From: Rhynchonema sp. JSB1_4
Lineage: Eukaryota; Nematoda; Chromadorea; Monhysterida; Xyalidae
DNA: 64,000 nt
Direction: 5' to 3'
NCBI GenBank assembly: GCA_030248065.1
Contig: JASAMV010008485.1
Span: 23,709-87,708, forward strand
Positions 1,604-52,074 of the stretch are shown one piece after another. The first letter of the stretch is position 1. Every line of letters starts with the position of its first letter. The position numbers and the translations under genes are program-made. The notes below the pieces were generated by a model that was given only the letters and a program-made list of their open reading frames with translations, was not told the DNA's origin and made no database searches.

Positions 1604-1609
1604 CTCTGT

Positions 1610-2096
1610 GCACGACTAAAAACCTGCCTTGGTCGACTTTGTCAAATCGTTTTGGATCGAAATCGTTGGGCGACTTGAGGAATTGTTTCGCGTCCAAAGG
1701 CGTGGCAGCGAACAGATTGCGAACAGCACGCAGACGACGGTGCGCCGAGCTGAATGATGTTTCATTGTAACGTCAGAGTATGTTGGACAAGCGCGTAATG
1801 CATATTGCAACGTGTCAAGCAGTGGGTAGCCAAAGCAGAACACCAGGTCTGGGTTAATAAAGTCTCAACACAAGGTTGTTGAAAAAAACATGACGAATCC
1901 CAGGACCATATACGTACTCTAAGTTTGTCACACCCTAATACACCAACTTGAACTCCCATTGATGTCCGAACAAAATGTGCGATTTGATTGTTCGCAGCGG
2001 GAACAGGCCACAACAGAATTCACATTCTTCGTAGATGTGCACGTGGTCTTCGATAACTGACTTTGGATCGGCAACAACTTTTAGTATTGCAGACAT
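1610..2096 (-). pseudogene. Array gene G9: 5' end only, truncated by a palindromic element
   Basis: Exon A (2,096-1,948) is open from ATG and encodes the family's N-terminal zinc finger, with CEFC, H and GH at the expected spacing. It ends in the phase-2 donor GTTGGT seen in its paralogues. Exon B follows from about 1,755 and keeps the conserved run LRAVRNLFA and FDPKRFDK. Similarity to G7 and G6 then stops at about 1,616, close to where the 399-1,603 palindrome begins. No C, D or later exon is visible to the left, so the remaining roughly 80% of the gene is missing or lies outside the window. It belongs to the G6/G7 subfamily (CEFCCGLF rather than CEFCAGLF). It could be the start of an interrupted gene that continues beyond position 1, but no such exons appear in the 398 bp available. 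Confidence 0.6.
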
Positions 2097-2559
2097 CACT
2101 GAGGATGACCGAATTTTGAAACTTCCCTGTTCGTTGCCTGGTTATCTGGTCATAACTAAAGATTACAAGCCTGAAACACACGAAAAAGGTAGAACTGCAA
2201 GGCAATGCAGTGTTGGTGCTGGAAACAAGTGAGCACAGAACGAATTTCTGTCAAATTCAGTGACGAACAATTCATTGTTTCGACAATGAAATATATATCA
2301 CTCAACAAAAAGAAAAGAAATACACCACAGTAGATGGAAATGGTCCGTAAGACACCAAGGCAAGAATCATAACAGGTATCAATACAATCTGCATATCTTT
2401 ATAGTGACATGATCGGGTAGAAATGAGTGGCATATTTTCGGCCAGGTCACGTTAAGGAATATTCACCATGGAGTGGTCACAACATCGGACGGAGGTTGTT
2501 AAAGATTGAGAACCAAAATATGGTTCTAAGTCTGACAAAATATTTACTATATAAACGAT

Positions 2560-3441
2560 GATCCACCTAAAATCATGTACTCAACATGTTCAAGCAAATC
2601 TTCATTCTCCATCGTGCCGTCATAGTCATACGCACAACTTCAGTCAAACTAGTTCCATAATAGAACTCTGGATGTTTGCGCATCTTCCCAGCCAGTCGAA
2701 CAGCTCCCTGCCTGAAATGGAAAAAATTGCGATCGAGTGAGGACTCGATTCTCAAGTGTGAACCCAAATCTCAAAATATTCACCGACCTCAGCTTGTGTT
2801 CGTAGCATGTCAATTGAGCAGGATCAGTGTCACACAAACAAGTAGATGTTTCACCGTTGGCATTTGTTGTCACATCAATCGGCTCACCATCAGCCAGTCG
2901 CTTCAACTCTCAGTTTGACCATTTGATACGGACGTGGCGGACAGATCCATTGGAAATAGATGAGACCCAGGGTGAAACGCATGCGCAACCAGCTGAGATT
3001 GCGGATTATTTGGTGGCGTTGCTGCAAGCAAAGTAGGTAAAAGTTATGTGCACGAACTTTTTATGCCACCCTGTACTCACATACTGTTCCAAATGCGACC
3101 AGACGTCGACAAGCATAAGACACGAACGAACGTACTGGACTTCGCGCACGCACTGAAAAGAAAATGCTGAATAATTTGGCAGGCGCAGTACACTGCCTTT
3201 ACAGTGTCCCTCTCTGTAGTGCAATCCCCATAATGCAAACACACATTGAACGCTAAAAGTCGCTCGTTATAGGGTTGAGCGGCATCACAATACGCGTCAA
3301 TTACACAGAGTAACTCTACAACACACCAATGAGCCAACTTGAACTCCAACAGATGTCCCAACCAAATATGCGATTAGATCGTCGGCAGCGGGAATAGACC
3401 ACAGCAGAATTCACATTCTTCGTAAATGTGCACTTGGTCGT
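2560..3441 (-). pseudogene. Array gene G8: internally deleted pseudogene
   Basis: Reading leftward: exon A at about 3,441-3,352 has the zinc-finger signature but carries an in-frame TAA where paralogues have a lysine codon, just after PLPTI. A decayed second-module G' follows (about 3,160-3,080), keeping YVRSC and a GTGAGT donor but lacking the PDLM part. Then come H' (about 3,027-2,920; GLIYFQWICPPRPY) and a degenerate tail ending in YDGTMENEDL (about 2,620-2,575). Exons B to F' are absent. The tail also carries extra DNA and frame breaks compared with G7. Its closest match is the neighbouring G7 (3,967-9,081). The premature stop, the loss of most exons and the truncated G' make it a pseudogene. 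The H' and tail remnants show it was once full length. Confidence 0.75.
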
Positions 3442-3692
3442 TATGCATCTACTGATTCTCCATTTTTTGTATTGCAAATGTGAGCATAATTATGGATAGC
3501 TGTAACTTTAAACGTGTATAAGGTTTACACAGCTCCAAAGACTAACGTTACTGACATGAAATTATCCTCCGCAATGTTGCACAACAATGGCGGAAGACGA
3601 ACACAAGCATGAAGGAAGAACCACACAAGTGCAGCACTGGTATTAAAACCAATATCCAAAAATCGAATCCAACAATGAACTTCATTGCACAT

Positions 3693-3698
3693 TTTATT
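3693..3698 (-). terminator. Polyadenylation signal of G7
   Basis: AATAAA on the minus strand (TTTATT on plus), about 270 bp downstream of the G7 stop codon. Confidence 0.45.
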
Positions 3699-3966
3699 GT
3701 TTACACAGTAAATAATAATGTGCAAATGACTGGACGACAACAGCACTACAAAATGCGAAAGATGAAGTCAACGAGAACAAAAACAAAAGCCTAGCACATG
3801 TACAAAATACGAATAAAACGACACTTACATACAACCCCTATTTGTGGTGAGGAGTTATGAGACATTTTTTCCCAATCTGCCTGCAACCTCCTTCAAGTAC
3901 TCTTCACAGTGGCCGATAAAGGCTCGGTATTGACTGATCAACGAGATTCGACTGTAGCCATCAATC

Positions 3967-6900
3967 TCACTGCACATCCTGATGCAGTTCCTCATTCTCC
4001 ATGGCCGCATCGTATTCCACCCTGTCCCGTTTCGCCAACTGCGGTGCATAGCGGCCCGGTTTCGCCCTTTTCCCAGCCAATCTCTCTGTGCGCGCTTGCA
4101 CCGTCTGTTCGTAGCGATTTAATTTGGGAGATTCATTCGGGTCAGTTTGCTTGGCAGATGTTTCACCGTTGGTACTTGCAGCAGCTGCAGCTTTGGCTTG
4201 CGACGGTCTACCCCTGACTTTGCCGTATCGTCGTTTGAATATGGTGAATGGTCGGGGCACGCACAGCCATTGGAAGTAGACTAGACCGAGACTAAATCGG
4301 AGACTGTGACGCCGGTGGGATGTGCCGATTAGCTGGTTGCGTTGCTGCAAATTGGGGAGATATAGAAAGACTTCTGAACTTAAAGACTTTAGCTGCCATT
4401 TTTTTCTCATAACATCGAGGGTATTTGTTTGGAGTGCCGAGCCTATGAATCACAGAACCTATGATCAAATGCTGACCACAGCGATCAGTCCGATTTTATG
4501 TTGGTTTGCATTTTGCACCAACAATATGTACTGCGAGCTGAGGCTACAAATTGTGATCAGCGTGAAGGTTGTCTTTGTTGTCTGGGAACATTGCCCACGC
4601 TGATCGAAGTTAGCGGCACAAGTTACTCTCAGAATATCGTAAATGCAAAGAAGTCAAGTTAAAGGATTCACATCAAACAAGTCCAAATCATTTTCATGCT
4701 TGAAGATGGACACCAGTTCCAGCATTTTCCTGGGAAGCTTCCATGCTGATCTGGCAAAGACTTTGTTGCCAAAAAAACAAGCTCAAAAACTCACATATTG
4801 TTCGATGTACGACTGCACATCCTGCAACATACAGCGATGTCGCATCAGATCGGGACACGATCGAACGTAACCGGCATCGCGATACATCTGCAAACAATTA
4901 CGTCAACATAAAACTGACAAACACAACAAATCATTCACCAACTAACCACGTGCGTGCATGCCGGGAACCTGGCCAGCATCTCGGGCAATTTAGCGAAATG
5001 CTTGATATGATGCAACACGAATTGTCCGTCCGGCTGTCGGTACACCATACGCCGGGAAGTGTCCGTCCAACACACAGGTCCTGCAAATCTCAATATTATT
5101 GACACTGTAAATATGACTTGAGAACTGGCAAATTATTTTTTGCATCTCACGTTGATGTTTTAGACGCAATTGGCACTCTTGCCCCCCTATATCTATCTAA
5201 TGGACTATGCCCGGATGCTGGAAGCAAACAGTTGACCCGGATATTCTGCTCCAACAAAATAAAACAGAACAAAAAAGGAATACGTTGCTAAAAACGGTTT
5301 GTATGCGCAACCCCCAACTCACCACAATCGGGTTTGTTGGCCAACAGGGCCTCCCAATTTTCCCTGGGTTCCTTGCGTCTCGCTTCAGCCAGATCGAAAA
5401 TGAACGCTTTTGATTGGTCAAGCGGCACGTCGTTTGGAATGGACTCGGATACGAGATACGGTAGGTCCATCGCTGCGAACAAGTATTGGAGCGCGATTTG
5501 GGGATTGAAATGCTTGAGTGGCAGCCAGGTTGTCATTTCAACGGCACTTTTATCGCATTCGGACTCCGAGAGAATTCTGAAATGATATTTTCGCCGACAT
5601 TCACGACTGGACAATTGGACATCGGAAAAACGCGTGTAAACTTACGGCACAGGCTCGGCAAACTGATGTTCACGGATTCGCTCCAGAAATTGGTCCGTCG
5701 GCAGGTACGGCCCGTTTTCGTCGATGTCGAGTTTCTTTGTCGTCAGTTGATCGTTGTAGCCTTGCACCACGCTGGAAAATAATCGTACGGAATTTCTTAC
5801 TCGTTCACTGTGCTCTCCAGAGCTCGGCATATTGGCAAACTCCTGTTGGAAATACCAACAGCCGGTATCAAACATGGGTCCGGTTTACATCGCATAGTTT
5901 TTTGTGAAAATTTTGACCATGGTAAACGTTCATTATCGGCTGTTGTGCGTGAGCAACTTTTACGATGATCAAAATTATTGGCATCAGCATGAGATCAAAG
6001 CAAGACTGGACTGCCTGATCATCAAGCTTGACACCAGCCGCCAATGTTTCAATATAGGTTCTTGCTTACCGTTCTCGCGTAGCGACAAAAGCACTCTGCT
6101 CCCCCGTCTTTGCCGTTTTCCGAGCCGCGCAATAACTGTTCTCTGTGACCGTCAGTCGCATCGGTAGACGACATTTGGGCGCATTTTTGACGAGACCAAA
6201 CTCGCGTGGTTTGCCCACCCACAAGTAGTAAACCATCTGATACTTGAAATCTCGATGGATCGGCCGCTTCTGATCCATACCTTTCTGGTACTGCTGAAAA
6301 GCTTAACTGAACGTAATTCTATAATTTTACACCAGACAACTTTAAGAAAAGTACATAAATCAATCAAACTAACTCTTCGTGATTCGAGAAATTCCACATA
6401 TTCAGGCAGTGACTTCAGTTGCGCCACAAATTTGACCAGATCCGGACAGGATAGCACAATTTCGATTTTGAATATCAGCTGAAAGAGCACATGTTTTCAA
6501 TCACAATGTTGTTCACAGAGAGATTTAACTTGGTTTTGACACTCAATAAATCAACTTACGACATGCGTATTGCTGGGATCATCACAAGTCAGTTGTTCGC
6601 CATACACTGGTCCATGACCACCGTAAATTGGGCCGTGATTTGGCTTTTTGCTCGTGAAAGTCAGCTTTCCGTTCGTTTCGTTGATATAGAAGCCTGCATA
6701 GGCGCGTTGCTGCGTTTCGCCTGCAAAATAGTCTTCTATACTCAAATTGTGCCTTTAGATTGAGAAATTGTGACTTTTTGGGTGTCGCCCTGCAAGACCA
6801 GTTCAGCAAACAAGAAAACATTCTGCTTTAGACTGGACTGCTTTGCTGTGTTTCATAATCCTAGTCTTCATTGAACTTTCTCTCTTGTCCGCACTGAGCT

Positions 6901-9081
6901 TTCAAGGCAACTAAAAAAATTCAGATTTTCAACAAAAAAAAGTAGCATACACGCATGTGAGTAATATTACTGAAGCACATACAAACCGATGCAGAGTTGA
7001 TTAGTCGATTTCATGGTGTTGAATTTCCTGGACGCATCAATGGCGTTGACAATAAACGCCTTTGACCGATCATATGGGATGTCACTAGGCGCGCAGACGG
7101 ATGCAAAATACGGATGATGCTCGAGCGCATTCATGTATTGCAGTGCTACATCAGGGTTGAAATGGTTGAGTGGAAGCCAGACTGCACCGTCGTCCCGCGG
7201 CTCGCATTCGGTGGGCAGCAGCAGCCTGCAGAAATAAGACTCGGATCTATTGGCAGTCGATAGTGGCGATGAAACGATGCACCACTTATTTCCGAAATTG
7301 GGATCCAAAAAACACCATTGTTTGTTGAACATGCACCGCTGCAACATGTGTCTGGTTGCCCTTTTCGACCTGCTTTCACACAAGGATGGTGCATCGTCAG
7401 CGCAAATGCAACCGTGGTCATGTGACCCCAACAACCACCTGCAAGCTATAAACGCATAGGACTAAATCTACATCTGACTTTTTCTCAAATAAGAAAGTGC
7501 TCTGCCAACCTGTCAGGTTCGGCTTCCCTGCACTGCATCACAGTGCGAGTCCACTGGTCTGCTTTCACAAACGGTCCGTTGTCTTCAATACTGTCCGCTA
7601 TGCGAAGTCTGCCACCGTTGTGGCTTTGGTCTTGTGTGTCACTGTCTTCTTGAATCCCACAGATTTCCTCCAGCTCGCGCACTGAAACACAAGGATGTGC
7701 TTACGGTCAACTTTATCGACCGTCTAAGCGATGGGTTGAAAACAAGCGCTTTGACCATGTGTTTCGAAGTCATGATTTTCATGTGTAGTAAAATTTGGTT
7801 CAAAACTGGAGACCGTTCTAACAGAAAGGTGCACGGCGTGCAACGGAATCACGATCACCAATCTTAACTTCCCAATTCTAAATTATGTAGATTCAGTTAA
7901 AAAGCTGCCCAACTAGACCGCACATTCTCGTTCTTTCCGCAACCGTTCAGCAGTGGCCCTCTTCTTCGTCTTATCCTTGTGCCTCGATATCGTGTCGCTT
8001 CCATCCCGCTGAGTCAATTGTGCCAGTTGGCGTTCTTCGCTGACCGTGGAGAAATCCAGTTGATCGGGTACGAATTTGCGCTTTGGATTGCCGACAACTG
8101 AAAATATTTGAAAGTAACCAATCAAAATACTGTGTTCCCTCTTCATAATGAGTGACTCTCTTCATAGTGACCAAGAACTTGATTCTCGCTAGTCCAATTA
8201 GAAGTCCCGACAATGAAAAAATATCCCGTTTTCTGATCATGTCACTGTAAAAAGGTTGAACGTACTCATAAATTGTGCGCAGCAAATTAGCCAGAGGGTT
8301 GTCACCGACGAGGCCTGGCACCTCGCCCGTCTGTGAAAACAGGCCGAAACGGGCAAAACTCAAGACCACTCAGTACATGACCGAACCTTTAACCATGCCT
8401 TTATTGGGCACAATGTCGACAGGTGGCAGATCAGCAGGTGACATGTCGAGCAGCCTATCGAGATTCAATGGTTCCTGTTTGATCACTTTGGCCTTTTTGG
8501 CTCGCGGGGATCTGTGCAACGACGGTGTCAATTGCGAAACAATGGACCCGTTTGGATTGTCGGGTTTATCGAATCGTAGAGGGTCGAAATCATCCGGTGA
8601 GGACAGGAATTGTTTCGAGTTAATTGTTGTGACCGCGAATAGATTGCGAACGCGACGCAGACGACGACGTGCAGAACTGGAATACAGGATCAATGTTTCA
8701 TTGTAATCTTGAGTGAACGCAAACTTGGTTATCTGAGCGGGTCGCATCCTGTTTTGTATCCAACGTGTCACCAGCCAGCAGTTGGAGTGCGCCGCAGATC
8801 ACAAATATTCTCATACGGTTTGGATCAAACCGTTATCCCATTTCCAACCATGAAAGTGGTTCAAACAACATCAACCCGAACAACCACGCATGCAACGGCA
8901 GTGAACCGCGTACTAACTTGAATTCCATCAGATGTCCCAGCAAAATGTGCGATTTGATTGTGGGCAACGGGAACAGCCCACAACAGAATTCACACTCTTC
9001 GTAGATGTGCACTTGGTCCTCACTGGTTGACACTTCGTTCATTTCGTAGACCTCATCATCAACGTTCATTGTAATTGCCAT
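3967..9081 (-). CDS. Array gene G7: two-module zinc-finger protein, unknown family
   Basis: Multi-exon gene: A 8,918-9,081; B about 8,380-8,677; C about 7,926-8,098; D about 7,509-7,682; E about 6,985-7,226; F about 6,559-6,721; G about 6,375-6,481; H about 6,070-6,296; D' about 5,646-5,773; E' about 5,324-5,578; F' about 4,951-5,083; G' about 4,796-4,889; H' with tail 3,967-4,349. Exon A has ATG at 9,081 and the CEFCCGLFPLP...H...GH zinc-finger pattern. Exon B has RNLFAVTTI and the sumoylation-type VIKQEP. Exon C is a charged, helix-prone segment ending RKERE. The final exon contains GKVRGRPSQAK, an AT-hook-like core, and ends with acidic MENEELHQDV. At the B/C junction the GT used by G6 is GC here, but another in-frame GT lies 12 bp further on, so the frame survives. 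Probably nuclear; function unknown. Confidence 0.75.
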
Positions 9082-9358: not shown

Positions 9359-12300
9359 TCATGAAACATCATCCTGCAGTTCTTCGTTCTCCATATCCGC
9401 ATCGTATTCCACCCTGTCTTTTTTCGCCAATGGCGGTGCGCATCGACCCGGTTTCGTCCTCTTGCCGGCCAAGCGCTGCGATCGCATCATAAGGTATCGG
9501 CTTGGTTCCTTCGGCTTTGCAAGTAATGTTTCAACATTTATGTTGATAGATTTGCCGGTCGACTTTGATTTCAGTTTGTGGTTGCCTTTGCGTCGTTTTC
9601 GTGCCAACTCCAGACGACTGTGCTTTCTTGTAAAAACACTGAATGGCCGTGGCGGACAGAGCCATTGGAAGTAGACCAGCCCCATAGCAAAACGTATGCG
9701 ATGCCAACGACGGTTGCCGATCATTTGATTGCGTTGCTATAAGTGTGAAAACGTTTGACCTCATTCACTGACCTGGGCCAGGTCACAAGAAGCCGAATGA
9801 CGTATACCTATGCTATGCCCATACCTATACCTGAACTTTTGCATCGCTTTTTTTATTTTTATAGCGAATTAGGCTATCGTTTTTGTTTTCTGTTACTTCA
9901 TGTGGTACACGGCATCGATACTGAAAATATGTATCAGCCTCAATAGAGCGATCAAACAGCCAAAACAAATTTAGGTATAGGTTTAGGTAATTTGGCTTCT
10001 GTGGACCAGGCCGCGGTCATCCTGCGCTGACTGAAAAAACGTTAACCACGTATCTCGTCATGTTCGTACCGTGTATAATGAACACTCTTGATAGCAATCA
10101 AAAATGATAGCGTTGATACCAATTCCGATGTCTGCCGGTACAAAAAAGGCAGAATGAACAATGTCTCAGTGTCACACAAGCTAGCGTGTGTGCCCTACAC
10201 TCACATGTTGTTGAACGAAAGACTGCACGTCCAGTAACAGGTATCGATGTCGCATCAGATCAGGACACGAACGAACGAAGCCAGAATCCCGGTAGATCTG
10301 CATTAAATGATACGTTACGTTGATTCGAGCGTTTGTTAGCTCGGAGTGCGGAACTGATGTCCTCGACTCCTTACTTCGTGCGCTCATTTGGGACTGCATT
10401 GCGTATACGACATTATTAGCCCTATTTTATGCACAAAGAGTTTCTTGTTTTCAACAATTTGTGTTGCTCCCACTGCTTCACGAACATACATACATTCACG
10501 TTACAACACGCAGCATCGACTGACACGGTACGTTGCCCAATGACGCGCTGTACTGATGTAACAACAGCCAGTTTAGGCAGTTTCGCCCCATTTTTGACAA
10601 AACGGACAGCGCGCCAACGAGCAGGTCATCATCCATGCGAATAAATGGAAACTACGACAGGTCAAAATGCAGTCACACGCTAACCACGTGAGTGCACGCC
10701 GGGAATCTCGCCAAAAACGTTGCCAGTTTGTGGACACGCTTGATGTGGTGCAGCACATACTTCCCATCCGATTGCTGATATAACACGTGTCTGGAGTAGC
10801 TTGACCAGCAGACCAAACCTTTGTGAGTAACGGAAATATTCACAGTATAATCTAATTGTAGACGTTATCACAACGCAATATGCAACAAACAACTGTCACA
10901 GACTCCCATAAAAAAATCTGACATGTGATAGGCGAGGCCCGGGGGTCAGAACTAGCCAATACGAAATTGGGTGGAAGATGGGAAAACCGTAAGAACAAGC
11001 AACAAATTAAAACTTTTCAAAAACTGCTGACCCAAACTGACCACAGTCGGGTTTATTTGCCAAATGTGCCTCCCAGTTTTCCCTGGGTTCCTTGCGTCTC
11101 GCCTCAGTCAGATCAAAAATGAACGCCTTTGATTGGTCGAGGGGGACGTCGTTTGGAATGGACTCTGATACGAGATACGGTAGGTCCATCGCTGCGAAAA
11201 GGTACTGAAGCGCAGTTTGTGCATTCAAGAGCTTGAGCGGCAGCCAGGTACACCCGGGTTGGCCACGGTCACATTCTGCCTCGGACAGGATCCTGCACTA
11301 TTGGAAACACTTGAATAATTTTGAAACATTTGTTCAACCCAATTGAATAAAATTGCAACTTACGGCTGACGTTCGGCAAAATGATGTTCACGGATTCGTA
11401 CCAAAAACTGGTTGAGTGACAAGAATGGTCCGTTGCTTGCTATGTCCAATTTGGCCGTGCCTGTCAGGTCCCCGTAACCCTGCACAACGCTGCAACAGGA
11501 GTTCGGCGTCAATATCAAATTTCGGCTGGCTTGCATATATAAGATGCAGGTAAATGAAGGACAGTGAATGCTATGATTCAATGCGGTATTTTGAACTGCA
11601 TGTGCAAGTCACAACTGTTTGGTAGGGCAGTCACACACAACCCCGTCACACATGGGAGAAGGCTCGGGATCGGGACACGCTACTTTGTATCTCATAATGT
11701 ACAGTATATCCTACTGCAAAGGATCATGACCATGAGCTGAACTGGTCGTTCAAATGAAAGACGGTGAAGTGGTGCAGCACCATTGCAAAGATGCACTGCT
11801 CAACAAATTGTTCGCTCGTGCAGTGGTTATCCTTTGAATTATGCAGTACGCAACCGCAGTTTGGCACATGTCTATTAAACGAGGTGTCTCTTGTAACAAA
11901 TTCTCGAATAACGTAATATAACTGTATAATTGTTTAGCCTCTCGAACTTATTTGTGTGACTGTAGAGCAACCTTATGGAATTGCACATGCATTGTAAATC
12001 GAATATTTTTGAGGGCCGAAACCTACTCAAATTGAAAAAGCCAAACAATAATATCGACTCAAGTTTACGCACCGTTCACGCAGTGTCACAAAATGGCTCG
12101 GTTCTCCAGCCGCTTTGCCCTTCTTTCGCATTTCACAATAGTTGCTTTCGGTTGCTTGAAGCTTCGACGGAAACAAACATTTCGGTGCGTCTTTCACCAG
12201 ACTAAATTTTCGTGGCGTTCCCACCCAAAAATAGTATAACATTTTGGACACGAAATTTTTGTACTTGGGTCCTGACTGTCCTGTGCGTTTCACATCCTCC

Positions 12301-13790
12301 TGAAAACATGAAATATGGCATGAAAGATACGAAAACAATTTGTTTAACAAAATCAAATATGTCGAACCAACTCGTCTTTTTTCTGCAAACGCCACATATT
12401 CAGGCAGCGACTTCAATTCTGCCGACAACTTGAGCAGATCCGGACACGACTGTACGATATCCATTTTGAACAGGAGCTGCAAATTTTTTACTCGTACACG
12501 CTTTGGTACATAGAGACTACCCTCTTTGTGGTGATATGATTTAGTCCAGTCACCATAAACAGTATTCACCATATGAAGTGGTGATAAGGAACAGATGACA
12601 GATTGAGTGCCAAAAGATTTCGCGTTTGCCCACATGTATGGTCACATAAACTATGTGAAATAGCAGGATAACGACATAACACACCAACCAAATGTGTATT
12701 GTTTGGATCGTCACAACGCAGACGCGTATTTGTGTACATGCGTCCGAGATTCAGCTCATTGTTGGTGAACGTCAACTTGCCGTCCGTTTTGTTCACATAA
12801 TAACTGGCCTCCAACCGACTTTGACATTCGCCTGCAGATACGTGCTGATATGCGGTATGTAGAATGCCAACAAGTCTGGTAGCAACTGATGAAAGTGCAA
12901 TTTTTAAGGGGAAACGGAATTGGCAACGTACATAACTGGCATAAATAAGGACCTTTTCCACAAATCAACGATCAGCTCTAACAAACCGCACGTGCACCTA
13001 TCTGTTCGCTTGTAACATACCGAGGAACATCCCGTGCAGTTTGTACAATGATCCTGTACACTTTGGATCGGCGATGATGAACGCTTTTGATCGATCATAA
13101 GGGATGCTGCTGGGTACACACTTGGACACCAAGTACGGGTGATCATCAAGTGCATTCATGTATTGCAGAGCGATTGATGGATTGAAATGGTCGAGTGGCA
13201 ACCAGACGACGCCATCGGCTTGTGACTCGCATTCAGTCGGTTGGAGAAGTCTGTAGAAAGTATCCTCAATGTAAATGTCCATTGACCAAGACACAGCTCT
13301 CATATGATCACCAAATTTACAGGTCCGTGAAATCGAATTCATGCAAGTGGAACTTGCACATTTGCAAACATTCCAATCCTATTTTACGCACCTGCCAGGC
13401 GCAGCAGCTCTGCATTCCGCCACAGTACGCGTCCACTGCTCCTGTGCCACAAACGGTCCATTACTTTCAACGCTGACAGCAATTCTGTTTTGTTTCTCCA
13501 GCTCCTCCTCGTGTTTCTTTTGTTCTCGCACTGAAACATTGCGCACAGACTTGGAATAAAAACCATTTTGGTGGGTTTTGTGAATCTTGAGCATCATACG
13601 CTGTTTGTGGTGACCCTCCAGAAAGCGAATTAGTTAACCATGCGCTTGTCCTGCGTTGTCCGTTAACCAGTGGTGTCGTTGAGAAATCGAAATTTTCCCC
13701 CCCCGCCCCACCCCCCCCCACCCCCAAACAAACCCCCCCCGGGCCCCAAACAACCCCCCCCGAAACCCCACCCCAAAAAACCACAAACAC

Positions 13791-13858
<68 letters not shown>

Positions 13859-14796
13859 ACCCCCCCGTTAACCTCCTAACGACTACTCTGCCGGGTGCGG
13901 ATCATTCCACTGAGCCCACGTTCACAGGGCCGGTATGATCGCAATACAAGACATCTTTTTCGCACCATTGCAAATTTCATGTTTATCCCCTCTCACATTC
14001 TCTTTCCTTCCTCAATCGTTCAGCGGTTGCTTTCATCTTCACCATATCCTTTTCAACCTCTTTCCTTGCCAGTTGCGCTGCCTTCAATCTGCGTGCTTCG
14101 ATTGTACGCGCTTCAGTCAATTTGCCCAACATTCGTACTTCATTGACTTTCTTGTCATCCAATTGGTAGGGAAGGAACTTGCGCTTCGGGTTGCCGACAG
14201 CTGAATACCTAACTCTTGTCAACTTGTCAATAAATAACGGTTGTACAACCAATTGTGCGAATATTCGATCCGATGACAATACCTTTCTTTGTCACTATGT
14301 TTGTTGATGGCGGGTCGTTAGATGGCCGTTCTTGCTCGTGCACCGCTGGTTCTTCTTTGACGGCCACAATTGCTCTTGAACACGGAGTTTTATCCAGTGG
14401 AACCAAAGGCGAAATAACTTCAGCCCGCGAAAATCGAGGTTTTTGACTCGGTGCACGGCTGTCAGGTTTGGCGAACCGTAACGGATCGAAATCGGCAGGC
14501 GAAGTGGTGACATGCCTCGGGTTCAATGTTGTGACGGCGAAGAAGCTACGGGTCGGTCTCAGACGACGGTGCACCGAACTGCAAAGCATCAAGTGATGTT
14601 TCACACAAATGAATAAGGTGCCTCAAATGAACACTCACTTGAACTCCAACTGATGTCCCAACCAAATGTGCGCTTTGATTGTGGCCAATGGGAATAGACC
14701 ACAACAGAATTCACATTCTTCGTAGATGTGCACTTGGTCTTGAAGGGGTTCACTGGTCGACGCTTCGTCATCCTCAACGCTCACTGTTATCGACAT
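9359..14796 (-). CDS. Array gene G6: two-module zinc-finger protein, unknown family
   Basis: Exons: A 14,639-14,796; B 14,283-14,578; C about 13,994-14,201; D about 13,394-13,533; E about 13,023-13,254; F about 12,685-12,835; G about 12,375-12,480; H about 12,075-12,301; D' about 11,362-11,490; E' about 11,042-11,295; F' about 10,688-10,822; G' about 10,203-10,303; H' with tail 9,359-9,737. It has the same layout as G7, including a fused last exon (H' plus basic region plus MENEELQDDV). Exon C is lysine/arginine/glutamate-rich and likely a coiled coil (EARRLKAAQLARKEVEKD). Exon B has AVKEEP, a sumoylation-type site. E' is almost identical to E' of G7 over about 59 residues, while the flanking exons are only about 60% alike. 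The C-D intron holds a poly-C hAT-like element. Start chosen at the ATG that opens exon A in all paralogues. Confidence 0.78.
13660..13872. mobile_element. hAT-like element with poly-C core in the G6 C-D intron
   Basis: CAGTGGTGTCGTTGAG at 13,668 matches the terminal repeat of the element at 18,870. The eight bases before it (CCGTTAAC, 13,660-13,667) recur at 13,865-13,872, as a hAT target-site duplication would. The interior from 13,698 is an almost pure C tract with scattered A, G and AAAC interruptions. The right terminal repeat is not visible, so the assembly may be collapsed or truncated inside the tract. Long apparent reading frames here are low-complexity artefacts. Confidence 0.5.
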
Positions 14797-37765: not shown

Positions 37766-38157
37766 GCTTGAAAGGTTGAAGCTGAAACTGAACTCGAAAT
37801 ATTGTTGGCCATATTTTCAGTGTTGGATCGGTACTGCTAATGTAGCATCAGCAGCGGTAACATTGAACCGTTCGGCAGCGCAACAGTTTGCGAAATCCGA
37901 TCCTGTGACTTCATGTTTATCCCAGACTGATCGAGAGAAAAATAGACAAACTAAATGTTGGGCATAAACTTGGAACAAAACAACGAAAACAAGTGATAAC
38001 AAAACAAAACATTAATGAAACAGTACTTATAGAATCTCTAGCATAATATAACAGACAAATAGAACCTCAATCAACATGACCAGATAATCATTTACCGGTG
38101 CAATGTTTTTTGCCATTTGTTACATTATAAACATTTGAGCATGCACCACAGAACCAA

Positions 38158-41100: not shown

Positions 41101-42985
41101 ACGAACCATCAGCCATCTGACGACAACCAAACGTGGGACGATGCAACTGATTGTCAGGGAATGATGCCGGGCCTGCGAGCCGACGAAAATTTGAATTTGC
41201 AGTGACAATGACCAAACAAAGAGCGCATTGTTGAACAATTCACAGGATGTCGACAACAGCCAACGCTTCCCGAAGGCTTAGTAAAAAAACAACGAACAAC
41301 GTGAATTCGCTGCAGTGAAATGTTGCCAAACACGTACAAGAAGATCAGAAACGCACCGCACCCATCGATTTTGTTTACATTCACTTGACATAAATGAAAA
41401 TCGGATCCATTTGATGCACGAATGATCACAGCCTTGGATCGATCGATCGGTGGTTTTGTGGGCAGTTGTTTGGAGATCAAGTCGGGTCGAGAGTGCACAG
41501 CCGAGAGGTATTGCAGCGCTACCGTGTTACTGACAAGGTCGATAGGCAGCCACACAACCCCGTTGGATCCGGGCTCGCACTCTGAATGATCGAGTAAACT
41601 GAAACATAGAGCAAAATTGTATATTTCGATGAAAACTAGAAACGATCAAAAAATAACAAACCGATCAAATTTCGCGAGCGCCATTTGTTGAATTCGCTCG
41701 ACAAATGTCTCATCGGCAGCAAACGGCCCATTGACAGATGTTACGTGGGACCATGAAGTGCTGCTCGACCTTCTGCCAGCTGGGATGGAAATTAGAAGAC
41801 GGATGAAAGAAGAAATGTGCTTGCTGTTTTGTAAAAAAATCGTGTTCTGTGACATATGCTCAGCCAAAACAAAGCAATCGAGTAACCAACCCGTGCCGTG
41901 ATCGTCAGATGTGTCCGAATCGCTATCACTTTCCCCATCCGTACTTTCAGATTCAAGTGAGTTTTCTAAAAAAAATCAGGGACTAAATCAAACAGGGTCA
42001 AGTGTACAACGTATAAAGAAAGCACCAACCATTTACGTTCTTTACGCTCGACTTTTTCTTCCTCTTCTTTTCCTTCTCCGGCTCGTAATCACTGTCCGAA
42101 TCATATTCACGTTCAGGCTCGCTCGCCGGCTCGCACTGAATATCGGAACACGACGTGGACTTTTTATCTGAAAACATTTTTCACAGTTTCTTGTCAAAAG
42201 TAAATTAATTTTATCTTTCTCACAAGACCAACCCGGATCCACCAACTGGGCATAGACGGGTGATGGTACAGTCGTTCGCGGCATTTCACCATAAATCACA
42301 TGGTCACAAATCTGCTCAAATTTTTCATCGGGTTCCACTTTTTCGGGTTCGCGAATGTGGTACAGGTAACGACTCTTCTTCGCCGGTCTCTCCACACTTT
42401 GAACACAAGGCTGCTCATTGTCCGTCGTGGCATCCGGCTCTTCGTTTACACCAGATGGACTGTAGACTTCCCTCTTTTTTCGACTGCGTTTTGGCCGGCA
42501 TGGCTGATCTTCTTTGGGTACAAGACGCTCAGGATCGAAATCAGTCGCATTCTTGAAGATCAAGGCCGAGTCCAGCTTGGTCACCGCGAATACGTTACGC
42601 ACATCACTCAACAGCATGGCATTCGACCTGTAACTAGTCATTTTAGCGAACAATTTCATGAGATTAAAAAGAGCGACAGACACAGGACATCGGATACGCA
42701 TACATACTGTATTCAGCAGTGGACGTTTCCGCAGGTGAGCATGCATGCGACTCACGCTTCAACAGGTGCTGTATTTGTACACATATCCACGGGAAAAATT
42801 GAAAATCAATGAAACTAGGCGCAAAAAACAGACTTCCATTCGAATTCATGTCCGAGCTTGATGTGTGCCTCCAACATCGGCAACGGGAACAGACCAGCAC
42901 AGAACTCGCACTCTTCGTACACCGATACTGAGTCATCCTTGGCTGTTGTGGGGTCCAGATCAGGCTGTGAGGAAATTGGTGCCAT
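38158..42985 (-). CDS. Array gene G2: two-module zinc-finger protein, unknown family
   Basis: Exons: A 42,834-42,985; B 42,233-42,627; C1 42,030-42,167; C2 about 41,891-41,965; D 41,662-41,779; E about 41,360-41,602; F about 41,015-41,175; G about 40,691-40,785; H about 40,353-40,575; D' about 39,955-40,093; E' about 39,523-39,774; F' about 39,257-39,380; G' about 39,053-39,147; H' about 38,466-38,589; tail 38,158-38,313. Landmarks in order: CEFCAGLFPLP zinc finger; RNVFAVTKLD and FDPERL; basic RPKRSRKKRE; acidic SDSDYEPE followed by KKRKKKS; SVNGPF; WLPIDLV; DGCG; FGCRQMADGSW; SCPDLIKF; HYFWLHNARGF with linker ending IRDR. The second module repeats these as MNGPY, WLPLDSI, DDCG, CRQRKDGSW, SCPDLIKY and LWVGKARQF, and the tail is YDATMEDEG. 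The stop is TGA. The G'-H' intron contains a perfect-arm foldback. Start is the ATG of exon A. Confidence 0.78.
38753..39014. repeat. Foldback repeat in the G2 G'-H' intron
   Basis: The left arm (38,753 to about 38,866; CTTACAGACGCAGGGAAACT) is repeated in reverse complement at about 38,895-39,014 with only a few mismatches. A short loop near 38,867-38,894 contains GAATGTTTCAGTCACAC. The arms are about 115 bp. The transcript would form a long intronic hairpin. Confidence 0.8.
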
Positions 42986-43303: not shown

Positions 43304-46300
43304 TCACGCGTCTGTTTCTTCAACTTTCATGTCACTCGGCATGACGTCATCTTGCAGATCAAGCAATTCCTCATCCTCCAACGTCGCATCATAATGTCGA
43401 TTTTCAATCGAATCCGGCCGTTTTTCGAATGAGTATTTCATCTGATCGGCAGTTTTCCTTGGTTTCCTGCCCAGGATCTGAAAGATAACTGAAATTAAAT
43501 CAATCCTGGGAGACTTCAAAGTGCGTCCATTGGGCACCAACCCGTTTAAAATCTCTCGGTTTGCCCACCCAAAACCAGTAAATCAACGCCACATCAAATC
43601 GAATCGAATGACGCGTGCGGAAGTGCTTCCGCTTCGTGCCGATCAGTTCGCTGCGTTCCTACAGCGAGCATTATACAACCCTGGCTGGCTATCACAATAA
43701 AATATGAACCGCTTTGTGAAGTAATTGTGAATCTAAAAAACCAACATCCTGATCGCAATAGGACTGAACGTCAGTGATCATGTAGCGATATTTCATCAGA
43801 TCCGGGCACGAACGAACATAACCGACCTCATATCGCATCTGAAACAGCGCAGGCACATTTTCAAATCCAATGCACCGTGAAAAAAATAAACGCATTCGTC
43901 ATCCACACTTACCACGTGCGTATATCGCTCACACAGTTGATCTCGAGTCGGCGGATTCTTGGCGCCGGGCATCATATCAGGTCGATATCTCGAAGCGAAC
44001 TTCCAAATTCCGTCTCTATTTTGCGCGCAGAAATTCAAGCCGAAGTCGATAGTGGTGGTGTTGCCTGTAGGGATTGCATGTACATTACTCGCAAGCGGCT
44101 TTTATCGCTTGTTTTAGCTATAGCATTTAGAAAATGAACATTCGCTTTGCTGTCATTTCTTCACAACACACGCCTACACCGGTGTTTCTCGTGTCATGCG
44201 ACAATCAGGGCTTTCGTCTGACAGTAGCCAGGTGCGCGCAACCCGTCTGCGAAAACACGTAGAAACGGTCAACAAAAAACTGTACAACTCGTGTTCCCAC
44301 TCACCCGCACTGGTGTAGCTGGGGAGTAGGTAGGTCGACGCTCCATCCTGGTACAGTAGCTAGGTCGCCGCCACCCGGCTGGTATGTAGGTTGCGATTTT
44401 TGGCTCAAAACGGTATAAATCGGTATTTTTTACTCCAAATAGGCGAAAAATCGCGCGCTACGCGCAAAATTAGCGTTTTAGAGTACATTTTCATCAATGT
44501 TTAGACCTAAAAATTTTGCCACCCCTAGCTCGGTCGGTACAGTAGGTAGGTTGCCGGCCCGCCTGGGTAGCTACACCACTGCTCACCCGCATTATCCTTC
44601 ACAACCGCACGTTCCCAATTCACCCCCGGATCACGTGCTCTGGCATCAGCCAAGTCGAACAGGAATCCTTTTGATCGATCAATAGGCAGTTTCGGTATGG
44701 TGGTAGTGAGCAGATACGCATGTGATTTTGCTGCCAACAGATACTGCATGGCGATTTGATCGTTCATGTGATCCAGTGGCAGCCACACGGTGCTGTCCTC
44801 GACACGCATCATCTCCAGTTCGGTGAGTAGTCTGTGCCAAATAATGAAACGTCATGTCTCGCATCAATTCGACACCTTTAGAAATCATCAATAAAATTTG
44901 GTGAACGGATCGCATCTTGGTGAATTTAGGATACGGTTACTTTCAAACTTCGCCAGGAGCAATTTGCACCAAGTTGTCTAATTTGAAAACTTTAGGTCGT
45001 CCAATTTTCAGGTGCACATTGCACCGAAATTACATGAAACCAGAACCATTGGGAGTTACTGCTTGCTTCCAGACCGTCCCAAGGCACATCTTTTATCAAA
45101 ACGGTCACGTGACAAAGGTAGATCAGTTCCGATCCGATCCCCAAGCTCAAACTCCTGGTCTTTGAAACTGGCGCGTTGCTGCCAACCTTTCGGTGGATGC
45201 TGCTTTGATGGTCAACATTCGGTCAACAAACACGTCCGAAGGCACAAACGGTCCGTTAATTGTAATATCGATGCGGTATGCGTCTGGTTTGAGCATCTCC
45301 TGTTTGTTGCGATTGCTGGTCGTCGGAAAGCCTTGCAGAATGCTGCAAAACAAATGAAACAGTAATCCTCTTTCGCAATTTCAGTTGGCAATGCGTCTGC
45401 CTCACAATACAGTCTGCCTTTTTCATATGATATGATCGGGAGGGACGCGTGATACTCTGTCACAATAAAAATATTCACTATACATACACACAGAACAGAA
45501 TGGCATTTAATACTTAGCAGGTCAACGGCACATTGGGGACCAGAATAGCGTTCTAAGACATTCAGTATGAGAAGGATGTCATTAAAAAGATGGCACGCTG
45601 CAAAATAAAAATAAAAAATTTAACCTGTCCCTAATTGCTGTCATATGTTTTTTCTGCTTGGCCACGTAGAACGTGTTCATATTCAATGCCTTTCGATTCA
45701 CCATTGTCTCATAATTCAGCTCAATCCAGGGCAACGTCGGCACACATTTGAGTTTCGTCATCAGTTTGAATGGTCGCGGGTTGGCCACCCAGAAATAGAA
45801 CACCATAATTCGCTCGTAATTCGCGAACACTGCATTGCTCCGCTGTCTGGGCGTGAAGTCATGATCTGTCGTTAACTGTAAATGGAAAACAATACATGAA
45901 ATTCGCATTATACGGTTAAAATCATGCAATGAATATCTGCGGGATGTGCCTTGTAGGCACGTGCAAACGCATATGACGCGTGGAGGGCTTTAGCGGTTCG
46001 ACCCGAAGTCTAAGACTGGGGTCTCATCAGTAAAATGGACAACCAGGGACCAGGCCCAAAGCCTGATGGTGCAACTTTAGTGCAAAGTAGTTCAAAGTGC
46101 AGGCAGTTTAAAGCTGCTGGTCAACAACCCATCGACCTCGCTTAATCTTGGGGGCAGTGCACATTAAGAAAGGTGGGATATCGTGTTACTCGACTCTGAC
46201 TTGGAGAGTCGATTCGTTGCTTCCTGATGTTTCACGGCCAGGTTGAAGTTTGCCCCTCAGTGAAAAAATGCAAAAGTTATGCCGGCTTCCCGTGGAAAGC

Positions 46301-49300
46301 GCAATTCACGGCGACGTTTTAGAATTTCAGAATATCAAGCACCAACGTTTGTTTCATCAGTATGATATACAGCTTTGCAGGAAACAGCTTGTATCCTGAA
46401 GGAGAAGTTATTTAGTTCCAAAAACCTGGTGTTTTTTGGTCACCGTTTTCTTCGCCGATAATTTTAAGCATCTGCGATTGACCAGCAAATGTGTTGATCG
46501 GACACAAAAATCCTTTAATTACTGTGTACATAACCTGTGCTTTTGAGTTCCCTGCACCAAACACAGCTAATACTATAATTCGGACAACATGCGCAAGTCG
46601 GTCATTATGAGCGCGCGCGCTCAAAAACAACGTGCAGATTCGAGCACTCAAAAATGTTTTGTCTTTTTTGGGGTCGCGCACGCCCATAATGACCGACTTG
46701 CGCATGTTGTCCGAATTATTGCGTTAGCTGTATTAGGTGCAAAGAACTCAAAAGCACAGGTTATGTACACAGTAATTAGAGGATTTTTGTGTCCGATCAA
46801 CACATTTGCTGGTCAATCGCAGATGCTTAAAATTATCGGCGAAGAAAACGGTGACCAAAAAACACCAGGTTTTTGGAACTAAATGACTTCTCCTTCAGGA
46901 TACAAGCTGTTTCCTGCAAAGCTTTATATCACTGATGAAACAAACGTTGGTGCTTGATATTCTGAAATTATTAAACGTTGCAGCGAATTGTCCTTTCCAC
47001 GGAAACCCGGCATAATTTTTGCATTTTTTCACTGAGGGGCAAACTTCAACCCGGCCGTGAAACATCAGGAAGCAACCAATCGACTCCCCAAGTCAGGGTC
47101 GAGTAACACGATATTCCACCTTTGTTCAGGTGCACTGCCCCCAAGATTAAACGAAGTCGATGGGTTGTTGACCAGCACCTTTAAAAAGCACACTCCGCGT
47201 GTACGTTTACCAAAAGTGCCAAGGTTAAGATACAGGCAGGCCAGAAGACGATATGTACAATGGAATGAGTATTGTTTCCAAAAGAGATTCACGCAGTCAT
47301 TCAGAGGGTTAGAGATCTGGGCATCGTATTTTTGGACTAAAAATGGGCAAAAATTTGCTGTTTTGCCGCATCAGTCTTTTCACCTTAATTTACACTGACC
47401 TCAAAGGTTTTTAAGCAAAATGGATACCAAAATGCCACAATCGGCGCACTTGAGGAGCATTTGGCTCAAAAAATTTTCCCTCACAGCTCCCCTGTTTGCA
47501 AATTAGTGTTTTGAACCCTAAGTGTCGGGCGTCGGGCCCCGAAAAATCCGACACCCGACATTTGGAGGTACCCGACACCCACTTTTTTGGTACCCGTCAC
47601 CGGACATTGCTCTCAACGTAGTCATTCTTCACCTTCTACATTCTACCAGGGGATACGAACAAAAGTGTTCTTCTCCAGGAACAAGAACGGGACAAGAAGA
47701 TGGATTGTATTTGATTCATCAAAAAGCTTTCAACTGGCGTAAATTATCCATCCAACTTGAGAGACTGTTTCGTTTTATTAAACAGAGCTTCAGAGAAATT
47801 GCAAACGTAGGGTGGAATTTTCGAAACGGTGTAAAGGTCAGTTGGGAGTAAAGGTCGGTGTAAAGTTCGGTCGAAAGCTCGGTCGGCGTAGCTCGGTGTA
47901 AACGTGAAACATTGCCTGTTATTAACGTGGAATGTTTCAAGTTTACACCGAAGTCTATCACACTGTGCTGTCGACCGAGCTTTCCACCGACCTTTACACC
48001 CAACTGACCTTTACACCATTTCGAAAATATCACCCGTAGTAATCAAACCCTGACCTGTTTGTAGCGCTCAATCGTCATCACAGCATAAGTGAATTTGATC
48101 AGATCCCGGCAAGAGGCCACCGGCAGTTTTTCGCAAATCATCTGCAACGTCTTTGCCTGTTGTATGAAATACGGTCAAATTTCGTCATGGGCAAGTTCGT
48201 TGTAGGTGTTTCTTTTTGCCGTGTCCCGAAAATTTCGCATAGTTAACGACTTCGTTATAAGCACATTCAGACTTCGCATATGCATTACACTACACCTTCG
48301 GTTGTTCCGAGCAGTAAGATGTAAGATGTACAATTCGTTATAAGCACAGCACTCAGAAAAATGCCCCTGAAAGATATTCAAGTTTGGATAGTCAATGGAG
48401 AACAAACTGGAGATTGGAAAATGTTGAAAGCTAATTGCATTGACTTTATGCAAGTGAATGAAGCTATTTTTTGCGCATAAAAATACCCACATTTTATGGA
48501 TACATGACCGATTCGGGAATTACGGACACAAAGATGGACGATCTAACAGATTGCTTTCGGATTTTACGTCACAGTATTCCGCACCGTCCGGTATTGCACC
48601 GTTGTACATTGTTGTGGCTCTGCCTGCGTACATTTAATTTCTGATTGCATGTTGTCTGTGTCTGTCTGTCCGTGATTTCGTCCACCTTCTCACCGTTTCC
48701 TGTCTTGGTTTTGTATTTATTTTTCATTCCCGTAACTTGCACACCCTGTTTTGTATTTATTTTCATGCCCGTAAACTCCACACCCGGTCTTGTAATTATG
48801 CTTCTTTCACTTAATCTTCTTATTTATGTATTATTGAGTGGGTGTCGACGCTATAAACTAAACTAAACCGATTCGGGAAAAGCACGGTCATTACGTTTAA
48901 AGGGGTGGTGCCACTTTTATTGAAGAGAACTCGGATCTGCCTGAAAATTTAATACAAGATGCTTGACGACAGGGTTTTATTACAAAGTGGCAATAAAAAA
49001 TTCTGAATATTGATCTATCGTGAATGGGAGCCTTTCGAAAATCCGATTTGCTCCCCGGTTGCGATTTTCATGGTTTCAGCCATAGATCGCAATAAATCAG
49101 ACGAAAAACAAAAATAAGCACACCTTTTGAAAGGTAATCAAAAACTGCACAAAAAGTTGTTCTTATGATTTTTCACAAAAATGCGCCGAAATAAAGTTAT
49201 TTCAAAAAATAATTTTTTTCGGACATAGATAAAACTTGAAAAAATTCTCTGAAATTCTATCCATGTAAATAACTTTAATTAGTCGCATTTTTGTGAAAAA

Positions 49301-52074
49301 TCATAAGAACAACTTTTCGTGCAGTTTTTGATCACCTTTCAAACGACGTGCTTATTTTCGTTTTCCATTTTGCGATCTATGGTTGAAACAATGAAAACCG
49401 CAACCGGGGAGCAAATCGGATTTTCGAAAGGCTCCCATTCATGATAGATCATGAACATCATGAACATTCAGAATTTTTTATTGCCACTTTGCAATAAAAC
49501 CCTGTCATCAAGCATCTTGTATTAAATTTTCAGGCAGATCCGAGTTCTCTTCAATAAAAGTGGCACCACCCCTTTAACTACCAGTTCGTTATAAGCATAG
49601 TTCACATAATGCATTGTTTCGAACGTGTTCCGTTGTTATACCTAAAACCAAGTTTGACTGTAACAGAAGGATCGCAAACAGAACACTGACCACATGTGTG
49701 TATCCTTCTTGTTCAAAATCGTCCGCCCTGCGTTTCTCACCAACCCGACTGCGATAAATTATTTCAGTTGCTTCCCAAAAGCCACTGTCCACTTTACGGC
49801 CGTAACATTTGTCTCCCGTTGAAACATTGGTAATCAGACCTGAACACAGATAAAACAGTCATCTTTTGACGCAATGCAAATTCTGCAGCGCGTTTATTCC
49901 CCGTTTGGACATGTTTCCACAAATAGGCGGTTAACCAGGATATCGACGGTGCGACTGCGCGACCCATGTGACTCGAATAGTACACATGACCTGGGCCCGG
50001 TCCACAGAAGCGGATTAACATTTAGTGTTAAGGATTTAGTGTTAAGGTTAATAGTAAGGTTAAGGTAATCCGCTTCCGTGGATCGGGTCCTGCTTGTTTA
50101 TTCCAGCGCAAAACGATTTACAGCGCGCTAACACCAACCACAACCGTCCTTCGGATGCCAGAACTTGATCCAACTGTTTGCGCCTTTGAGATTCTGACGT
50201 TGCATGTCAATCAAAACAGCCATTGAGCGAGTGGTTGGTGGTGCTTTGGGAACACGATTGGAAAATAAATCTGGTCGCGAATCCAAAGCGTTCAGATAGT
50301 TGAGCGCAATTTGGTTGTTGACATATTCCAGGGGCAGCCACACAACACCGCTCGGACTCGGCTGGCAATCAGAGGCATCGACAAGTCTGAAAACATCAAG
50401 AAATAAAAGACTTCTACAACAAGCTCCAAGCATTGGAAAAACACCTTTCAAACTCAGCAAATCTCATTTCTTTCATACGAGTCAGGAACGTTTCTTTGGA
50501 TGCGAATGGACCATTGACAGACAACGTTGGATCTTTGTTGACATTAGCTGCAAAATAAGATGAATGATGAGAATCAACCAAATTTAGGTAGCAAACTCAA
50601 AAAAATGTTCGCAAGAATGGTATGGAACTCACATCTGGCAACAACCCTGGCCTTATTGATCTTCTTACGGCCGTCAGTCGTAATTGCATCGCTTTCACTC
50701 CCACTGCTAGCTTCGTCACTTGAACTGAATGCTTTATCTTCTTTTTGTTTAGTTGGCTCTGAAATATTCAAAATCCAAGTTCAGCTAAACTTCACGAATT
50801 AAACAAACATGGCTTGCCATTCTCAGTGAAACTCTAAAGGCAGTGCATATTTTTCAAACCTTTTTTGAGTGCCACCGAGAACGGTAGGTTCAGATCATGT
50901 CACATAGAGAAAGACTGCAAAAACATCTCCAAACCAACCAATCCAATCTTTTTCAATCATAGTCGCCAACACATCATCATCACTTGTGTCATAGTCCTGA
51001 TCGGATCTGCCACTATCGTCTTCCCCTTTCACCGTGCGCGAATCTATCACGTCAGCAGGTCTGGTCACTGGCTTGCGTTTGCGAAATGAACGTCGCACAG
51101 ACGCATTAGATTTGGAAGGAATTGGGAGTTTGGCATCAGGTGGTTGACAGTCCTCATCCAGTACTGAGCACGGATCGGTTTTGATTTGGGATTCTTGCAA
51201 TAACGGAGCTTCGCTCTGCAATTCATTGATACATCAGCGATGAGAAAATGTTTCACCGAGAACGTTTATAGCCGCAGCGCACCGCAGTGCTAATGGGTCG
51301 CCGGAACAAGGAAACGTAGCTATGCATTTGCACGTCAAGCGCAAAATACCCAAATAAATTCCAATTACCCACCTTTCTCGGCCTGCCCCGTTTCCGTTTC
51401 ACGGGCACAATTTCCTCATCGGGATCACCATCGATGGGCGCGGCAGCCTCTTCTTGTTTGACAATCAATCGACCGGGATCGAACGCAGACTGACCGTCAA
51501 ACACAACTGACGGATCGAGACGGGTTACTGCGAACACGTGACGGGCCTCGCTCAGCAGGCAGTCATTCGCCCTAGAGAAAGGGAGAAAACACGAACTCAG
51601 TTCCGATCAGTGCCGTGGCCGGGTGGGGGACAGGCCCCCAAATGGTGCGCTGCTCGCCCCGACTTGGTATCAATACACTACACCCACCCGCCCCGCTCTG
51701 GTACCCTACCTCCGCCCTGAATTTTACCCTCAAATTGCCAATTTTTCGGTCAAAAGTGCCCATATTTTGAAAGGCCTATGAGCTGGTTTCGTGCATGACC
51801 CACAGCGACAAGCCATTCTCAAAAAATATCCTGACAACAAGATTATGTTAAAGCAAACGCACAAGCGCAAAAAAATCATGGAAACAGAATATAAACAAAG
51901 AAAACCAACACCATCTAACGGAACAGACTTCCATTCGAATTCATGCCCGAGCTTGATGTGAGCCTCCAACAACGGCAACGGGAACAGACCGGCACAGAAC
52001 TCGCACTCTTCGTACACGCGCACACTGTCATCAATCGTCACTTTCTTTGGCCTTGATGAAGTGGTAGGTGGCAT
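43304..52074 (-). CDS. Array gene G1: two-module zinc-finger/AT-hook protein, unknown family
   Basis: Fifteen exons that close in frame to about 840 aa: 51,929-52,074; 51,373-51,571; 50,939-51,215; about 50,633-50,758; 50,445-50,547; 50,139-50,386; 49,691-49,839; 48,055-48,141; 45,625-45,875; 45,187-45,342; 44,587-44,831; 43,913-44,064; 43,746-43,838; 43,542-43,658; 43,304-43,477. Residues C24, C27, H39 and H44 form a CX2CX11HX4H zinc finger resembling UBZ/C2H2 fingers. Exon 2 has HVFAVTRLDP, the sumoylation-type VKQE and the AT-hook KRGRPRK. Exons 3-4 are acidic and serine rich. Module 1 (exons 5-9) runs SVNGPF, WLPLEYV, DGCG, DKCYGRK, SCRDLIKF, FYFWVANPRPF and ends RDR. Module 2 (exons 10-14) runs INGPF, WLPLDHM, NFCAQNRDG, SCPDLMKY, FWVGKPRDF. 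The tail has YDATLEDEELL. A nuclear DNA- or protein-binding role is an inference from the finger, AT-hook and basic runs. The introns carry four transposon-like repeats. Confidence 0.8.
44300..44589. mobile_element. hAT-like element with perfect 8-bp duplication on a splice donor
   Basis: The element spans 44,308-44,581 with ends CACTGGTGTAGCTGGGG and, at the other side, the complement of CAGTGGTGTAGCTACCC. It is flanked by identical 8-mers CTCACCCG at 44,300-44,307 and 44,582-44,589. An 8-bp duplication and CAGTGGTGTAGC ends are hallmarks of the hAT superfamily. The interior is GTAGGTAGG-like repeats with AT-rich stretches and no transposase. On the minus strand the duplicated 8-mer is CGGGTGAG, which contains the GTGAG donor of G1 exon E'. 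Confidence 0.85.
46109..47185. repeat. 1.08-kb near-perfect palindrome in the G1 G-H intron
   Basis: The two halves (about 46,109-46,640 and 46,655-47,185) are reverse complements with few mismatches around a centre near 46,647. GGTCAACAACCCATCGAC at the left is mirrored by GTCGATGGGTTGTTGACC at the right, and each arm carries the same 97-residue open frame in opposite orientations (46,412-46,705 minus, 46,589-46,882 plus). Because these frames mirror each other across the palindrome and match nothing I know, I treat them as non-coding. No clean target-site duplication was found. Confidence 0.85.
47521..47605. repeat. GTGTCGGG / CCCGACAC word repeats
   Basis: A short inverted arrangement of GTCGGGCGTCGGG and CCGACACCCGAC, CCCGACACCC words, the same vocabulary as in the QSOX intron 1 element at 57,637-58,822. 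Probably a fragment of that family. Confidence 0.4.
47806..48035. repeat. Foldback repeat in the G1 G-H intron
   Basis: GGTGTAAAGGTCAGTTGGG-type sequence at 47,828-47,850 is complementary to CCCAACTGACCTTTACACC at 47,998-48,016. The pairing continues over about 100 bp per arm (GTGTAAA words, CGGTCG against CGACCG). The loop carries two ATGTTTCA/TGAAACAT octamers facing each other (47,913 and 47,938). Confidence 0.7.
48897..49577. mobile_element. Palindromic MITE with TTAA flanks (copy 3), G1 F-G intron
   Basis: The element spans 48,901-49,573, bounded by TTAA at 48,897-48,900 and 49,574-49,577. Terminal repeat AGGGGTGGTGCCACTTTTAT is mirrored at the right, and the arms pair almost throughout (GAGCAAATCGGATTTTCGAA words) around 49,237. 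It differs internally from copies 1 and 2 but shares TTAA plus AGGGG ends, so it is a related subfamily. No coding capacity. Confidence 0.82.
51606..51780. repeat. Dispersed GC-rich repeat in the G1 A-B intron
   Basis: GTGGCCGGGTGGGGGACAG near 51,615 followed by CCCCAAATGG, GGTACCCTACC and TCAAAAGTGCCC words resembles the block at 53,530-53,850 (GTGGCTGGGTGGGGGACC, then GGTACCTCC, then CAAAAGTGC). Both look like copies of one non-coding repeat of the CAGTG-type group, but the termini are not clear. Confidence 0.4.

Follow-up and report, generated by a model that had tools for sequence, protein, structure and literature searches.

What kind of genes fill the end of contig C5202, where related copies follow one another on one strand, and what might their products do? 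The window, by which we mean the whole stretch of 64,000 bases that was analysed (bases 23709-87708, the end of this 87,708-base contig), belongs to a nematode genome of 203.9 Mb in 5747 contigs. Unguided tblastn searches with exon seeds placed nine minus-strand finger exons in the window, near 52023, 42928, 37717, 31489, 24630, 14733, 9012, 3433 and 2042. The tandem minus-strand array of related genes claimed in the preliminary description was thus borne out, and it proved larger than described, since two further genes, G10 and G11, sit on C5202 upstream of the window. The array holds ten apparently intact two-module genes (G1-G7 and G9-G11), all on the minus strand.

G2 (38158..42985, minus strand) was spliced by hand into 15 exons, whose 14 introns of 63-464 bases are all GT-AG and which encode 834 amino acids from ATG to stop. 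Using G2 as guide, G1 and G3-G7 were modelled with a purpose-written spliced aligner, and G9, G10 and G11 were modelled with the same aligner using G7 or G5 as guide; neither set contained an in-frame stop. Owing to the guidance, the exons of the linker and a number of C exons are uncertain in these models; the conserved exons are also visible in unguided tblastn. On the minus strand, G1 occupies 43361..52074 (15-exon model), G3 31985..37774 (range of the model, start and stop codons not pinned), G4 25545..31543 (in the model, an extra intron divides the W exon of module 1), G5 16342..24666 and G6 9377..14739 (both ranges of the models), and G7 3967..9045 (model to 4246, with a YDAAMENEE tail from an ORF at 3967-4449). 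At the window edge lies the 5' part of G9 (1..2060, minus strand; finger exon 2060-1948, exon B 1749 to about 1624), the remainder of which, with both modules, extends on C5202 to about contig base 19758, some 4 kb past window base 1. The fragment G8 (2926..3439, minus strand) consists of a finger with an in-frame stop followed by bits of exons D and E, and no J or W match was seen between the finger and the exon D/E pieces. The earlier count of seven intact and two decayed copies therefore stands for G1-G7, whose models are stop-free, but only G8 is decayed, as G9 runs past the window edge without a stop in its model.

The surroundings of these genes showed some further features. Between G9 and G10, at about 19162 and 17195 of the contig (L040), lie two more finger exons, further diverged; after the one at 17195 comes a B-like stretch, and the interval up to the start of G10 showed no module match. 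Within the G6 span, the plus strand has about 74 consecutive C (window 13793-13866), possibly an assembly artefact. Upstream of G1, window positions 55203-55685 (minus strand) hold an exon of an Erv1/Alr-type (QSOX-like) sulfhydryl oxidase (Pfam Evr1_Alr, E 7e-8), and a second match of this type is found on C527, a contig that also holds members of the array family. A stretch of about 60 bases at about 57004-57065 of the window is a dispersed repeat with dozens of copies genome-wide. The 18S loci of the genome bear a signature of the nematode kind, and a genome search for canonical SL1 did not find it.

The splicing pattern is shared among the copies. Exon A, said before always to end in phase 2, does so in all seven genes G1-G7 and in 10/10 when G9-G11 are included. 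The E-J junction is in phase 2 in 7/7 of G1-G7 and the J-W junction in all 14 modules, while phase 1 is found at the W-C junction of 10 of the 14 modules of G1-G7 and the remaining four models differ or are uncertain; the W exon of module 2 in G2 (39523..39770, minus strand; VVWLPLDS...DRSKG...), for example, is entered in phase 2 and left in phase 1. When splice sites were compared between paralogues, identity was 0.74 on the exon side of donor sites versus 0.29 in the adjoining intron (36 of 90 comparisons), and 0.73 versus 0.29 at acceptor sites (37 of 90). As only exon sides matching at 0.6 or better were counted and exons shorter than 36 bases were left out, the exon figure is a selected one, and the informative figure is the near-chance 0.29 of the introns beside conserved splice sites.

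The encoded proteins run in the order finger, exon B, linker, module 1, module 2 and, in eight of ten genes, acidic tail. The N-terminal zinc finger noticed at first is present in 10/10 genes as C-x2-C-x11-H-x4-H with GLFP after the second cysteine; in G1 it lies at 51928..52023 on the minus strand and reads C-x2-C-x-G-L-F-P-x7-H-x3-G-H. Exon B is conserved as RxVFAxT...FDPxRL. The following linker of 150-203 residues is rich in both charges, and its description as a basic region with sumoylation motifs holds in part: basic runs of at least four residues occur in 7/10 linkers (G6, G7 and G9 being without one), and the strict motif [VIL]KxE[PE], a form picked after looking at the linkers, was observed five times in the ten linkers versus 0.38 expected (0/500 shuffles as high), but the general motif psi-K-x-E/D is at chance, with 10 observed versus 7.6 expected in the ten linkers and 117 of 500 shuffles as high. 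The linker of G1 also contains the AT-hook-like RKRGRP, within KRKRGRPRK, and G3 has the related GGRPKR. Each protein then carries two modules, as described, which span 190-229 residues over the 20 copies (roughly 210 had been given) from NGPx (MPWA in module 1 of G5) to PRxF and are built of exons J (NGPF...), W (WLPLDxxNxxIALQYL...DRSKAFIFD), C (often YxCR..DGxW...YTH), D (SCPDLxK) and E (YFWVxNPRxF). The acidic tail, reported as YDATMEDE, takes the form YDA(T/D/A)xE(D/N)E in 7/7 of G1-G7 and YDPMCEDE in G11, but the models of G9 and G10 showed none.

In a tree of the 20 modules, the ten first and the ten second modules formed two clades with support of 100/100, and 0/500 label shuffles were as low; this means that the two modules were present before the array grew. 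Terminal branches in this tree were mostly longer for first than for second modules. Comparing eight gene pairs in four regions each, we obtained pN/pS below 1 in 31 of 32 comparisons, indicating that the array genes are under purifying selection, and module dN/dS of 0.12 to 0.39 where dS was defined, values which are rough since many dS exceed 1. The lone pN/pS exception was the finger region of G10/G11, where pS was 0.01 over 76 codons, in contrast to 0.65 in their module 1; this suggests recent gene conversion or partial duplication. The near-identity of the two genes covers the finger and exon B and lies at about 15276-13785 (L040) and 8575-8045 (L039) of the contig.

Does the repeated module belong to a described family? 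None had been recognised at the outset, and none emerged from our searches. Scanning the 14 modules against Pfam yielded only three families with E of 1 or less, none in more than one module, the best being META (E 0.0019); NCBIfam, searched with one module, gave nothing credible, and the module profile had no credible match among PDB sequences (best E 0.22). AlphaFold gave a fair model of exon W alone (pLDDT 81.8, 13 rows) and a poor one of exons D-E, in which an intron was read through (pLDDT 66.6). The Foldseek comparison that had been proposed as a check was run on these two partial models (Foldseek/VIA) and found no solved-structure match at E 0.001 or better; as the models covered partial pieces, the module as a whole may still have a known fold. 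The sole relative found beyond this genome, among 356 candidates, was the metagenome protein P0001 (86 amino acids, ENA, from an 813-base contig), a fragment that contains a large part of exon W (profile E 5.7e-7) and is identical to module 1 of G6 at 25 of 58 residues. No relative turned up among viral contigs when these were scanned with one W exon.

Within the genome, relatives are numerous. Matches to exon W of G2 numbered 47 on 12 contigs (18 on C5202), and a composite finger query found the GLFP finger at 79 places on 26 contigs, 12 on C5202, the latter being a hand count of the rows covering the finger out of 87 matches. These numbers are not gene counts, and some of the contigs could be alleles or duplicates of one another, as C4690/C5707 and C3705/C4887 gave identical scores. 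The expansion expected from the window is thus evident and may be specific to the lineage; the expected absence of relatives did not hold for the P0001 fragment and the finger superfamily of this genome, but otherwise none were found in the sequences searched here. Sixteen loci from C4218, C844, C2323, C527, C1194 and C375 carry module exons, save L006, which has the finger only. By contrast, 10 kb of C3398 (L046, C3398:18501-28500) with three finger exons contained no module of the window type (best module-HMM domain E 1.4). Two genes there, with domains joined by eye across one intron apiece, encode the finger, RRVFACTD, IAVKVEH and then two W/Y-Y-C...C...GEHNH domains each; a weak AFT match (E 0.04) was found in one of these four C3398 modules and nothing in the other three, none being above the Pfam cut-off. 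One C3398 finger gene terminates in an acidic ELEDESF tail, and the L046 finger genes also hold a repeated helical region, FDxYIRQGMTMKEMVAHHEKVLRARPDF. On C3705, similar C...C...EHNH-type pieces, without a spliced model, lie between finger exons on the same strand; one of two matches FAR1 (E 1.1e-4, which falls short of the Pfam cut-off), and the other weakly matches the unrelated Sec23_BS (E 0.017). AFT and FAR1 are both members of the WRKY-GCM1 class. Since the finger stands beside orphan modules and also beside FAR1/AFT-like domains, it looks like a front end common to at least two kinds of protein; this sharing across contigs demonstrates exon combination, not function.

Tentatively, and with slightly less than even confidence, we propose that the array represents a tandemly duplicated and expanded family of nuclear DNA- or chromatin-binding proteins that would work in a ZAD- or KRAB-like manner while being neither. 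The GLFP finger may provide a constant interface for partner binding or dimerisation, the linker, with both charges and strict KxE(P) motifs, could carry nuclear-import and SUMO-dependent cofactor signals, and the two orphan modules may recognise a target of DNA, chromatin or nucleoprotein. From sequence features we infer nuclear location, DNA or chromatin binding and the finger's recruiting role. This nuclear-regulator reading appears the most economical given the basic runs, the AT-hook-like RKRGRP and the related GGRPKR, the strict KxE motifs and the company of the finger elsewhere, and support for it as the best explanation comes from the 15-exon frame of G2, splice-site conservation, the module clades, pN/pS, the spread of the finger and its AFT/FAR1 neighbours. 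Against it count the module's failure to match any nucleic-acid-binding family or fold (Pfam, PDB profile, partial-model Foldseek), the lack of enrichment of the general SUMO consensus, the three linkers without a basic run, the Sec23_BS match of the C3705 piece and the three of four C3398 modules without a match. If the modules are target-recognition domains, the array would represent an undescribed large family of regulators, possibly with a new fold, and the pairing of the same finger with different downstream parts would be a natural experiment separating constant from variable function. It is less probable, and we advance it as speculation, that the GLFP finger plays in nematodes the part of KRAB or ZAD, combined through exons with at least two different recognition parts, of which the orphan module of roughly 215 residues would be a new nucleic-acid- or chromatin-binding fold, and still expanding in tandem arrays, possibly against transposons or selfish DNA.

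Other explanations were weighed against the same evidence. The WRKY-GCM1 class comprises the FAR1/FHY3, AFT, FLYWCH and MULE fingers, and the orphan module could be a decayed finger of this FAR1/FLYWCH/MULE type, which would place the genes far out on a branch of a DNA-binding family related to transposases: C3398 and C3705 pair the same N-terminal finger with such domains, two copies of which are present per C3398 gene, and exon C, often with a YxCR..DGSW start and a YTH end, is by eye reminiscent in part of the FAR1 and HNH pattern. However, the window modules have no detectable similarity to the class. In Pfam, none of the 14 matched FAR1, FLYWCH, AFT or GCM with E of 1 or less; the zinc ligands C...C...H-x-H are not in every copy, the residues invariant across the 14 including one cysteine, in SC(P/R)DL, and no histidine; and hhalign of the module against the C3398 and C3705 fingers, with thin templates of 4 and 7 rows, performed at chance (probability 0.1-0.2%, with 12/60 and 21/60 column-shuffled controls as high). 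We consider such an origin unlikely.

A cytoplasmic or immune-type expanded family, with a signalling-type rather than a nuclear finger, is also improbable in our judgement; large tandem families of nematodes are often environmental-response families, and the sole Pfam hint for the finger, obtained with one finger exon of G5, is XAF1_C at E 0.005, below the curated cut-off, whereas the basic runs and AT-hook-like motif of the linkers and the DNA-binding-type domains accompanying the same finger on C3398 and C3705 argue for the nucleus. That the genes are parts or by-products of a mobile element would fit their numerous, dispersed copies and their FAR1-like company, a domain class also known from Mutator-like transposases; it is made very unlikely by the multi-intron structure, the single orientation in the array, the module duplication predating the array, purifying selection and the viral contigs without a W-exon relative. 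Pseudogenes or misjoined exons, in some or all copies, might be suspected from the decay of G8 and from the guidance of all models but that of G2, with its uncertain linker and C exons, yet ten stop-free models, pN/pS below 1 and splice sites at which only the exon side is conserved leave little room for this.

Returning to the proposed nuclear regulators, we compared the array with two known systems. In ZAD-ZNF proteins, an N-terminal zinc-binding domain is joined to a diversifying C-terminal part, and KRAB-ZNF proteins have a constant N-terminal part and are encoded in gene clusters. ZAD-ZNF is described as an expanded insect family (PMC7655104), and KRAB-ZNF as an expanded family of tetrapod zinc-finger proteins (PMC4592553). 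The array family differs from ZAD-ZNF in that its finger is a single C2H2-type motif and its C-terminal part consists of two orphan modules instead of C2H2 arrays: zf-C2H2 was not matched in any of 14 modules, nor ZAD in the one finger exon scanned (G5), both in Pfam searches extended to E 1. The modules likewise set it apart from KRAB-ZNF, and a Pfam search of seven ORF pieces from G2, G4, G5, G6 and G7, in which the linkers are incomplete, found no KRAB box. Like ZAD-ZNF, however, the array family is expanded and has a zinc-binding N-terminus and a separate C-terminal part, and like KRAB-ZNF it is expanded and clustered and has a constant N-terminal part, so the logic that it may share with both would be that of a constant recruiting end and a diversifying recognition end, with copies gained by tandem duplication.
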